Shown in pieces: positions 12,475 through 18,189 of a stretch of DNA of 23,574 nucleotides. The stretch is from a virus, in the IMG/VR virus record IMGVR_UViG_3300046028_010882, positions 1-23,574 of that record. One strand, given 5' to 3'. The notes under the pieces were generated by a model, which ran no database searches, was not told where the DNA came from, and saw only the letters and a program-made list of their open reading frames with translations. The position numbers and the translations under genes are program-made. Position 1 is the first letter of the stretch. Every line of letters begins with the position of its first letter.

Positions 12475-12823
12475 CAGCATCACATTGCACTTCTCATTAC
12501 ATTTATCTTGTTAAATTGTACTCAATTCCGATGCAGTTTACTACCTTGGCATGGAGTACTTCAGAAAATGCTAACTAAAAACAATTGAACGTTTTCTGAA
12601 ATTTATTGTGTAATGGAGTGTACTGGGGTGTAAAGTCTTTTTTAATTAAATCTAATAATATTATATATATATATATAGATATACCCTTATAAATAACTAT
12701 GCATACATTACATAGATACACCTCTTTTTTAAATAAACTTTATATTCAAATATACATATGCCTAGTAATGTGTAATGTAATTGGTGTAATATCCAATTCT
12801 TTCAAACAAAAGGAGTTTAAATT
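12475..12823. other. Candidate replication origin: RTGTAATG repeats and AT-rich tract, 349 bp without genes
   Basis: No ORF is supported here. RTGTAATG occurs at 12608-12615 and 12770-12777 on the plus strand and at 12495-12502 and 12706-12713 (as CATTACAT) on the minus strand. Variants GTGTACTG (12618) and GTGTAATA (12784) add to these, and GTGTA repeats at exactly 10-base steps at 12608, 12618 and 12628. A TATA run (12662-12677) could be an unwinding element. An inverted repeat TTCAGAAAATG/CGTTTTCTGAA (12560-12570/12590-12600, one mismatch) lies on the left. Adjacent to the primase-helicase gene, this has the layout of an iteron origin; it could also be an operator set. Confidence 0.4.
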
Positions 12824-13045
12824 ATGAGTAATAGTTTTTTATTGATTGACCAAATCGACCCTAAACGTAAACACAAATTGCTTACGATAATTAATTTGAA
12901 TGAAATAGAAATTATCGACACGTATGCCGGCGACGTTAATGTGAAATTGAAGACGGGAAGGGATGCGGTATTTTCATTTGATGATATGTCGAAAGCAAAA
13001 GTAGTAAACATGGAAAAAATCATAGAAATATTTTCTAAAATGTGA
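12824..13045 (+). CDS. Orphan 73-aa protein before the VRR-NUC gene
   Basis: AAAAGGAG ends at 12815, eight bases before ATG 12824. The protein is a mixed alpha/beta fold, with strands IEIIDTYAG and VNVKLKTGRDAVFSF and a final helix. It has no cysteine, signal or membrane span. I do not recognise a family. Its stop lies 12 bases before the next start, within reach of a hairpin that hides that start, so its translation probably controls the nuclease. Confidence 0.65.
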   Translation: MSNSFLLIDQIDPKRKHKLLTIINLNEIEIIDTYAGDVNVKLKTGRDAVFSFDDMSKAKVVNMEKIIEIFSKM

Positions 13046-13048
13046 AAC

Positions 13049-13083
13049 AATTTCTCTATGCACGAATCAGACATAGAGAAATT
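13049..13083 (+). promoter_or_regulatory. Perfect 12-bp hairpin covering the start codon of the VRR-NUC gene
   Basis: AATTTCTCTATG (13049-13060) pairs perfectly with CATAGAGAAATT (13072-13083) around an 11-base loop. The last three bases of the left arm are the ATG of the nuclease gene. In mRNA the start would be locked unless a ribosome finishing the upstream gene at 13045 opens it. The arm is also a possible dimeric protein site. Confidence 0.6.
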
Positions 13084-13438
13084 ATTCTTTGAATATGGAA
13101 ATTTACAAAAAGACTTTTTTGTTTATAAAGTTCCAGACCAAAGAAAATGCGTTAACGGAACCTATGCTAGGAATCCAATGATGCCGGCCGGTCAACCCGA
13201 CTTGATTGTTGTGCATGATACAGGTGTTGTCAGCTATGTCGAAGTCAAAACACAAACTGGAAAACTTTCAGATAATCAAAAAAGATTTATTGATAAGCTA
13301 CAGGGGATGAAAGTAATGGTTTTTGTATGTAGAACCATTGCTGAGTTTAAGCAGGCTTTAAATGACATTAGGAATATGTCCCAGAACGCACAGAATGCCC
13401 TAGGATTGATTCAAACACCAAAAGATGAGATAACATAA
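13058..13438 (+). CDS. VRR-NUC (PD-(D/E)xK) nuclease
   Basis: A 126-aa protein. The motif AGQPDLIVVHDTG then VSYVEVKTQTGKLSDNQKRF (about residues 44-80) gives the Asp, Glu-x-Lys and following Gln of the VRR-NUC family, small structure-specific or Holliday-junction-type nucleases common in phages. KVMVFVCRTIAEF is the usual next strand and helix. Only ATG 13058 follows the in-frame stop at 13043-13045. There is no ribosome site, and the start is inside a perfect hairpin (13049-13083), so coupling to the upstream gene is likely. It may resolve recombination or packaging intermediates. Confidence 0.8.
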   Translation: MHESDIEKLFFEYGNLQKDFFVYKVPDQRKCVNGTYARNPMMPAGQPDLIVVHDTGVVSYVEVKTQTGKLSDNQKRFIDKLQGMKVMVFVCRTIAEFKQALNDIRNMSQNAQNALGLIQTPKDEIT

Positions 13439-13477: not shown

Positions 13478-13530
13478 ACGTCCATAGCGTAAAGAGAGGA
13501 CGTGTCTACGGAAGGGCCACTCTCTTTTTT
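13478..13530 (+). ncRNA. Pseudoknot-like RNA element ending in a terminator-type U run
   Basis: ACGTCC (13478-13483) pairs with GGACGT (13498-13503). Within its loop, AAAGAGA (13491-13497) pairs with TCTCTTT (13521-13527), which is followed by U's to 13530. The two stems can stack as an H-type pseudoknot or compete. The second stem (AAAGAGAG/CTCTCTTT, 8 bp) plus U run alone is a rho-independent terminator for the replication genes. I matched it to no known riboswitch by eye, and whether it is more than a terminator is unproven. Confidence 0.45.
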
Positions 13531-13596: not shown

Positions 13597-13634
13597 GGGG
13601 TGAGTTTAATTGTTTGTCTCGCCCCTCTTTACTT
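13597..13634 (+). terminator. GC-rich hairpin, terminator candidate
   Basis: GGGGTGAG (13597-13604) pairs with CTCGCCCC (13618-13625) with one G-U pair and a 13-base loop, followed by a pyrimidine-rich TCTTTACTTTTC. It is the only GC-rich stem in the gap and would separate replication from packaging transcription. The U run is interrupted, so efficiency is doubtful. Confidence 0.45.
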
Positions 13635-13682
13635 TTCTTTGAATCCAGTCAATAATTTTAGTACCAAACTCAAGGACGAGCT

Positions 13683-13904
13683 ATGAACGCTGGTAGTGTT
13701 ACTGTTGAAAAGTATAAAATAAAAGGCAAAGTCTATGCGACAATTGACGATATAGCACTTGCTTACGGTGTATCACATGGGACAGCAGGGAAATGGGTAA
13801 CGAGAAGAATGACTCCGGATAGAGATTTCATAAGGCTTATAACAATAATCCTTAACGAAAAAGGGAAGGAAATAGATGTCGAAGACTTTGCAACAACAAG
13901 ATAG
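13683..13904 (+). CDS. Small HTH-like DNA-binding protein, 73 aa
   Basis: AAGGA at 13672-13676 precedes the ATG. Residues 15-45 (KVYATIDDIALAYGVSHGTA, then GKWVTRRM) look like a helix-turn-helix of the kind in small phage regulators or the N-terminal part of small terminases. The C-terminal part is a strand plus an acidic tail. It overlaps the HNH endonuclease gene by 29 bases. It may be a terminase- or endonuclease-associated DNA-binding protein; the exact family is not recognised. Confidence 0.5.
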   Translation: MNAGSVTVEKYKIKGKVYATIDDIALAYGVSHGTAGKWVTRRMTPDRDFIRLITIILNEKGKEIDVEDFATTR

Positions 13905-16951: not shown

Positions 16952-18189
16952 TTAAAGATATTTCGCTTTTCAAAAAGCAAATAGATTTCTTACAAGCAAC
17001 AGAAAGGGACGTTCTTTTAGATGCTGCTATCGGCTTCGGAAAAACAAAAATAGGATGCTTATGGCTGCACATGGTTGCAATTCAATACCCCAAAAGTAGA
17101 TGGCTAATGGTCGCAAGGGATGTTCCTCAGTTGAGAAATGCGGTCGTACACGAATTCTTAAAAGTAGGTCAAGACTGGCTTGGCATAGAAGACGGTATTC
17201 ATTTTGAACATAATAAATCACGCAATGAATTTGTATACACGAATGGTTCAAAGATTATAGGAGTAGGGGCCACAAACTATGATTCGGCATTTCGCGGACC
17301 ATCTTATTCGGGTGGATTATTTGACGAAGTTGATTACTACAAAGAAGAAGCGTTCCTTGCGCTTTTAGGAAGGATTAGAGAACCGCCAGAATTACTTAGA
17401 TTCGTTTCTTCTCCAAAGGGATTTAACCATGTCCATAATTATTTTTACGTTAACAAAAACGATACTAAAAAAGTTATAAATGCGACAACATATGATAACC
17501 CAACTCTAAGTAACGAGTATATTTCTGCGCTAAAAGGAGCATACTCTCCAAGACTATTCGAACAGGAAGTTCTAGGAAAAAGATTACAGATAAACGTTGG
17601 TAGAGTTTACAATGAATTCAACCGAGATATACACGTCAAGAATTGTCGGGAATTATTAAAAGACACCGATCAGCTTTATTTCTTCACCGACTATAACATT
17701 GCAAATTACTGCGGTATTTATACATTCTTCCGAGACGGCATTGTCTATGCTATAGGAGAGGAACATTTAAATTACGAAGGCACTCGCAAGATGGCAGAAA
17801 ACATTTATGCGAAATATGCAAAGGATAGGTTTGTAATTGTATGTGGTGATAGTGCTGGAAATAATAAAAGAGATGTTGCAGCCGATAAAACCAATTATGA
17901 AATATTCAAAGAAGTTCTAGGCGAGCATTGTACTAAGAAAGTTACTAACCCACCGGTGCTACAAAGAATCATCGCAGCAAACTCAAACTTCTATCACAAA
18001 AGGCTAGTAATAGATCCCTCTTGTAAAAACTTAATAAAAGATTTAGAATTGTTAGCATGGAAGGAAGACGGCAAGGACATTGAAAAGACAATCGACTTGT
18101 CACATGCCAGTGATGCATTTTCATATAGCACATGGTTTTTCCTTCCCATTAAACCAGAAAGAAGACAAAGCACTAGTATACAATTGTAA
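16942..18189 (+). CDS. terL: Terminase large subunit (packaging ATPase and nuclease)
   Basis: A 415-aa protein. The only start after the in-frame stop is TTG 16942; the next ATG lies beyond Walker A. Walker A AIGFGKTK (29-36), Walker B GGLFDEVD (124-131) and the SSPKG coupling motif (156-160) form the motor. An RNase-H-like nuclease follows, with Asp250 in FTDYN, Asp303 in CGDSAG and Asp391 in SHASDAF. It pumps DNA into the capsid and cuts it at headful or cos sites. It overlaps the HNH gene by 10 bases. Confidence 0.9.
   Translation: MPIVKDISLFKKQIDFLQATERDVLLDAAIGFGKTKIGCLWLHMVAIQYPKSRWLMVARDVPQLRNAVVHEFLKVGQDWLGIEDGIHFEHNKSRNEFVYTNGSKIIGVGATNYDSAFRGPSYSGGLFDEVDYYKEEAFLALLGRIREPPELLRFVSSPKGFNHVHNYFYVNKNDTKKVINATTYDNPTLSNEYISALKGAYSPRLFEQEVLGKRLQINVGRVYNEFNRDIHVKNCRELLKDTDQLYFFTDYNIANYCGIYTFFRDGIVYAIGEEHLNYEGTRKMAENIYAKYAKDRFVIVCGDSAGNNKRDVAADKTNYEIFKEVLGEHCTKKVTNPPVLQRIIAANSNFYHKRLVIDPSCKNLIKDLELLAWKEDGKDIEKTIDLSHASDAFSYSTWFFLPIKPERRQSTSIQL

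Follow-up and report, generated by a model that had tools for sequence, protein, structure and literature searches.

A perfect 12-bp hairpin contains the start codon of a phage VRR-NUC nuclease gene and may couple its translation to the preceding reading frame

How is a gene translated when its start codon lies in a stem and no ribosome site precedes it? This arrangement is found at the VRR-NUC nuclease gene of IMG/VR virus record IMGVR_UViG_3300046028_010882, positions 1 to 23,574, a stretch of 23,574 nt that is here called the window. The original prediction had described a perfect 12-bp hairpin holding the ATG of this gene, the lack of a ribosome site, and an upstream gene stopping 12 bases earlier, and these three points were confirmed. 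The inverted repeat has arms at 13049-13060 and 13072-13083 and a loop of 11 nt, with the left arm ending in the ATG, and when one mismatch was allowed it grew to 15 nt (13046-13060/13072-13086). The upstream TGA occupies 13043-13045, which leaves a gap of 12 nt to the ATG, and the hairpin begins 3 nt after this stop codon. The Shine-Dalgarno duplex calculated for the nuclease ATG was +0.4 kcal/mol, with no match. The features of the locus are the following:

12824-13045, + strand: upstream ORF, 73 aa, with an AAGGAG ribosome site ahead and ending AAA ATG TGA
13043-13045, + strand: UGA stop codon of the upstream ORF, in a frame identical to that of the nuclease
13043-13051, + strand: TGA-AACAAT, a weak extended -10-like string, 4/6 bases, ending 6 nt before the ATG
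13046-13057, + strand: intergenic gap, 12 nt, without Shine-Dalgarno sequence, holding 9 of the 12 left-arm bases
13049-13060, + strand: hairpin left arm, the last three bases being the nuclease ATG (13058-13060)
13058-13438, + strand: VRR-NUC domain nuclease, 126 aa (PF08774, E 1.7e-11)
13061-13071, + strand: hairpin loop, 11 nt, nuclease codons 2 to 5
13072-13083, + strand: hairpin right arm, within the nuclease coding sequence, codons D-I-E-K-L
13491-13530, + strand: terminator-like hairpin and T run past the nuclease, AAAGAGAG...CTCTCTTTTTT, with a folding energy no better than that of shuffles

The encoded protein matched PF08774 with 44.6 bits against a curated cut-off of 23.8, which places it in the family. 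Among four aligned sequences, L002 and L003 being identical in the alignment, residues G45, D48, and E62-V63-K64 were invariant, and these include the D and E-x-K that we take to be the catalytic core motif of VRR-NUC proteins. E3 and S4 were also invariant in this set, and the relatives aligned from M1, which speaks against a wrongly chosen start codon and makes ATG 13058 very probably the true start; moreover, no alternative in-frame ATG, GTG, or TTG was found between the upstream TGA and this ATG. Stand-alone VRR-Nuc proteins are described as resembling Holliday-junction resolvases, with dimers that cut four-way junctions, and the best-studied one as structure-selective; psNUC leaves linear duplex uncut, while stNUC and saNUC also gave nonspecific activity (PMC4103454). 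The nuclease of the window is like these three in its PF08774 domain, its small single-domain size, and its conserved acidic and lysine core residues, a likeness of family and domain rather than one drawn from sequence comparison. The suggestion that the nuclease is potentially toxic finds little support in the selectivity reported for the best-studied protein, although two phage VRR-Nucs showed nonspecific activity (PMC4103454). Low, regulated synthesis of a resolvase-type nuclease is nevertheless plausible, and may benefit the phage.

The nuclease start was then compared with the other starts in the window. Among the 31 tested, its ATG was the least likely to be unpaired (probability 0.00) and lay in the most stable local fold (-15.7). 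Opening this ATG was predicted to cost 6.27 kcal/mol, the largest value of the set, none of the other 30 starts exceeding 3.19. The whole-site opening cost, 12.77, was also the largest in the window, with the start at 18080 close behind (11.97). A Shine-Dalgarno duplex of -3.1 or stronger was calculated at 26 of the other 30 starts, the four others being weaker than -3. The upstream ORF looks translated, judging by its good ribosome site (duplex -8.2 kcal/mol) and by codon use like that of other genes, the codon score being +0.18 in frame and falling to -1.09 and -1.15 when the two alternative frames were read. The two genes thus lie on the same strand with a stop-to-start distance of +12 nt, and the downstream start is predicted to be structured and has no Shine-Dalgarno sequence. 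They also share one reading frame, with a single TGA dividing them, a feature absent from the original prediction. The terminator-like hairpin after the nuclease suggests that the upstream ORF and the nuclease form one transcription unit.

The DNA around this pair showed features of its own. Before the operon, positions 12480-12823 are AT-rich and non-coding over about 340 bp, with a TATTGTGTAATG-like word repeated at 12604 and 12766 and a long AT palindrome at 12655-12690, and this region is a candidate origin or regulatory region. Ahead of a 73-aa gene at 13683, positions 13597-13640 contain GGGGTGAG...CTCGCCCC, followed by T-rich DNA; in the relative L007, the matching place holds a strong hairpin (-19.7 kcal/mol) whose tail is similar, and therefore a conserved terminator is likely at 13597-13640. 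At the left end of the record, weak matches to a Wzy_C O-antigen ligase (1432-2589, - strand) and to an enoyl-CoA hydratase (206-712, + strand) might be cargo genes or host flank.

The counts favored the claim that such a repeat is unlikely to fall on the ATG by chance. The stem was the only one of at least 11 bp (loop 3-20) in the whole window; 12-bp stems were expected at 0.067 per window (4 of 60 simulated first-order Markov windows had one), and randomization of the upstream 60 nt with the coding side fixed gave 12 bp in 0 of 30,000 draws and 10 bp in 8 of 30,000, although all these figures flatter the hairpin because the site was chosen after the whole window had been read. The RNA folding proposed as a check was favorable at short range, as the 41-nt element folded at -13.2 kcal/mol (z -7.1) and 101 nt around the hairpin gave z -3.11, but the signal was weak over 121 nt (z -1.32, with 24 of 200 shuffles as stable). 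With the protein sequence and the left arm held fixed, the synonyms required for a perfect right arm had a probability of 0.012. Upon synonymous resampling of the coding arm, however, 380 of 5000 draws folded at least as stably, so that little in the choice of codons points to selection for the stem; the comparison of this resampling over other starts took in 21 of the 31. The hairpin is thus real and unusually placed, and the evidence for selection is modest.

We consider that the hairpin may be a start-sequestering element of a two-gene operon, with the nuclease made mainly by reinitiation after the upstream ORF, and hold the chance of this to be about even. In naked mRNA, the sole usable VRR-NUC start codon would be fully paired and would have no Shine-Dalgarno sequence, so 30S subunits would rarely initiate there. 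Ribosomes finishing the 73-codon ORF would halt on the UGA at 13043-13045 with their leading edge already inside the left arm; we take a ribosome at this codon to cover roughly to 13055, i.e., 7 of the 12 left-arm bases, or about half. The RNA beyond such a stopped ribosome, 13056-13110, was computed to fold at only -4.4 kcal/mol, and the remainder of the stem would collapse once the left arm is partly covered. A fraction of the post-termination ribosomes would then advance by 15 nt to the AUG at 13058, without a change of frame, and reinitiate, and the outcome would be a low nuclease level linked to translation of the upstream ORF.

Published work on coupled genes bears on how far this can go. 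For reinitiation at a distance of +13/14 nt, Haloferax pairs are reported to retain 40-60% of activity and E. coli pairs 20-60%, the loss in the latter being 40-80% at +14 nt (PMC10666635). Downstream starts of coupled pairs are known to carry inhibitory structures, a structure directly after the stop codon can reduce coupling, and at close spacing a second ribosome is described as unable to start until the first departs (PMC12548453). It follows from the second of these points that the hairpin may be an obstacle as well as a gate, and from the third that reinitiation is likelier than unfolding, since a new ribosome could not land beside a terminating one at this spacing. The original prediction had invoked strict coupling, in which ribosomes would act by melting the stem. 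The layout fits translational coupling, with its buried ATG, missing Shine-Dalgarno sequence, stop codon 12 nt away, and translated-looking upstream ORF; strict coupling finds no support, as the published pairs at +13/14 nt are only partly coupled (PMC10666635), and melting alone is the less likely route here. We therefore favor reinitiation by the same ribosome, probably with low to moderate efficiency, while the hairpin would block independent starts.

The pair would resemble MS2 and fr coat-lysis, f1 VII-IX, and E. coli rpmI-rplT, in which the downstream start is weak or silent alone and is opened or reached by ribosomes of the upstream gene. Those pairs have listed spacings of -50, -38, -4, and +52 nt (PMC12548453), whereas the pair in the window has +12 nt, no Shine-Dalgarno sequence, a local perfect hairpin, and a single frame. 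The arrangement looks like a fresh example of known translational coupling and not a new type of control, and in the literature searched for VRR-NUC, phage, and translational coupling, no description of a start hairpin on a VRR-NUC gene was found.

Relatives were gathered to look for conservation of the stem. A scan with the single VRR-NUC protein gave two loci in viral contigs (30%), one record in the phage collection (31%), and none in genome contigs, while a VRR-NUC profile gave 59 viral loci (28-54% over the matched segments) and four genome loci (35-51%); all the relatives found were distant. The exact hairpin pattern occurred in no viral contig, and the stem was absent from the relatives found. 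Primase and helicase scans for relatives found none, and a DNA search of the hairpin region against plasmids and phages gave no matches. In 36 loci collected through the terminase (17), methyltransferase (15), or HNH protein (4), there was no clear homologue of this nuclease, the weak profile matches being L007 at E 0.022 and L016 and L017 at E 0.82. Two near-identical contigs, L005 and L006, begin downstream of the hairpin by position. The nearest genomic relative reaching the region is L007 (terminase 65%), which has a different VRR-like nuclease in the slot, with its own AGGGG ribosome site and lying about 80 nt past the previous ORF. This VRR/Hjc-like gene (L007:1268-1678) precedes a homologue of the 73-aa gene found at 13683 in the window, i.e., a nuclease swap.

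Several distant VRR-NUC relatives had 4-nt ATGA overlaps in place of the hairpin. Scoring covered 66 loci, from which two near-edge starts and 20 duplicates were dropped to leave 44; in 20 of these the start call fell within two codons of the expected place, the starts of the remaining 24 being uncertain. A 4-nt or 1-nt overlap with the upstream ORF was observed in 7 of the 20 (L002, L004, L027, L028, L039, L042, and L047) and in 13 of all 44 loci, suggesting that tight linkage is common in the VRR-NUC family, with a geometry differing from that of the window.

The absence of the same stem from every relative found is in line with a hairpin that has no role, having arisen by chance in AT-rich DNA or by mutation, for example if a template switch during replication had copied the right arm in inverted orientation to give the left one. 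In that case the nuclease would be weakly translated, and any coupling would be of an ordinary kind, independent of the hairpin. The window-wide expectation given above is small yet not negligible, the equally stable synonymous draws point the same way, and template switching is described as able to make a perfect stem in a single event (PMC8794818), which the Markov nulls ignore. Against this, the stem lies exactly on an ATG that has no ribosome site, upstream randomization never reached 12 bp, and the ATG would be sequestered even if the origin of the stem were neutral. We regard this explanation as unlikely, though to be taken seriously.

Phage T4 offers another way of opening such a start. 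In T4 e, soc, 49, and I-TevI, the Shine-Dalgarno sequence and/or AUG is reported to lie within an inhibitory helix (PMC3014915), late promoters yield helix-free transcripts of e and I-TevI, and similar arrangements are described for I-TevII, I-TevIII, segB, and Aeh1 mobE (PMC2988022, PMC3014915). As a positive control, 94 minus-strand T4 starts were scored alike, excluding regA (cut), repEB, repEA, and + strand genes. The metrics recovered segB, I-TevII, 49, and e within the top 10 of the 94 by site opening, and gene 49 folded as a start hairpin; when two further starts are added to the 94, the window nuclease would take third place by ATG opening. Several T4 genes that are not known to be under hairpin control, such as regB, 45.2, and gene 1, scored high as well, so the opening metric is not specific.

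The window nuclease is like segB, 49 (endonuclease VII), e, soc, and I-TevI in being a phage gene with a paired start region, several of these genes encoding nucleases. The stem of T4 segB (L110, about 41918, minus strand) is also a perfect 12-bp one that includes the ATG, but in its 3' arm. In T4 it is the 3' arm that holds the start, a Shine-Dalgarno sequence is present, and transcripts from late promoters lack the 5' arm, whereas in the window the start codon belongs to the 5' arm, the 3' arm falls within coding sequence, and a Shine-Dalgarno sequence is missing; the layout is thus not that of T4-type control. With the ATG at the end of the 5' arm, a promoter of the T4 kind would have to give a leaderless mRNA to release it. 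A transcript switch as in T4 49, e, segB, and I-TevI would mean that the long mRNA is silent and that an adjacent promoter gives a leaderless mRNA with one arm. The recovery of the T4 genes by the same metrics and the TGA-AACAAT string ahead of the ATG would agree with it, the extended match being found at 14 of 870 window ATGs. The distant VRR-NUC gene of L029 is also suggestive of it, with an ATG abutting an 11-bp stem and TATAAT 7 nt before it. However, the hexamer in the window has only 4/6 bases, a promoter scan showed no + strand promoter-like pair there, some -10-like string lies at that distance from 188 of the 870 ATGs, and Shine-Dalgarno sites serve most other genes of the window. 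We judge a transcript switch improbable.

A start codon within a compact hairpin is the classical form of a translational operator, e.g., the MS2 replicase operator. The stem could accordingly bind a phage RNA-binding protein, perhaps the upstream protein, as for the MS2 replicase operator and T4 gene 43, and the small size of that protein, together with a low-confidence model of mostly beta strands, would suit this role. Against it, the model was built from one sequence (pLDDT 71.7), and the fold search of the PDB gave no match with E <= 0.001 and was uninformative. No relatives of the upstream ORF were detected, with no phage match at E 10. Besides, the hairpin has no second copy within the 23,574-nt window, and this explanation is very improbable.

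Read-through of the UGA at 13043-13045, stimulated by the downstream stem, would give a fused protein of the upstream ORF and the VRR-NUC domain, an idea raised by the single stop codon that separates the two same-frame ORFs. A shared frame has a one-in-three chance, however, the alignment of the relatives starts at M1, and where the 4-nt overlap is present the upstream ORF is in a different frame; moreover, the window is without a tRNA gene, and the absence of an Rfam match means that there is no recorded recoding element, making read-through the least probable of these explanations. A different genetic code was dismissed, as table 11 gave normal reading of the main genes, with TAA, TAG, and TGA all serving as stop codons, and so were a known Rfam element (no Rfam match) and a transcription terminator (the stem has no trailing T run and the terminator scan was empty there). 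A DNA operator seems unlikely, the element sitting inside a transcribed gene pair.

A broader idea is that phages repeatedly place hairpins on the starts of junction-cutting or other nucleases and open them variously: T4 by late promoters (49, segB), the present phage by a terminating ribosome, and L029 by a leaderless promoter. The ribosome halted 3 nt upstream would here unpair the 5' arm, giving a Shine-Dalgarno-less, in-frame, hairpin-gated reinitiation switch. In a survey of 246 ATG starts, taken from ORFs of 120 aa or longer in the window and in a set of loci mostly chosen for VRR-NUC, start-touching stems of at least 9 bp were found at three: the window nuclease (12 bp), L029 (11 bp), and another ORF in L045 (10 bp). 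Two of these three longest start stems are on VRR-NUC genes, which is suggestive, but we draw no significance from it because most loci were selected for VRR-NUC. The L029 element (L029:1470-1494) has a terminator-like hairpin just upstream, and its start is possibly leaderless. We think it quite improbable that this broader idea holds.

Gated reinitiation at the window nuclease, if it works, would provide a compact two-gene cassette tying a phage resolvase-type nuclease to the preceding gene. It would also offer a way to ask whether a terminating ribosome opens the structure or itself reinitiates, a matter described as not firmly established in a 2025 review (PMC12548453), and it could be used to ask whether phages favor start hairpins on junction-cutting nucleases.
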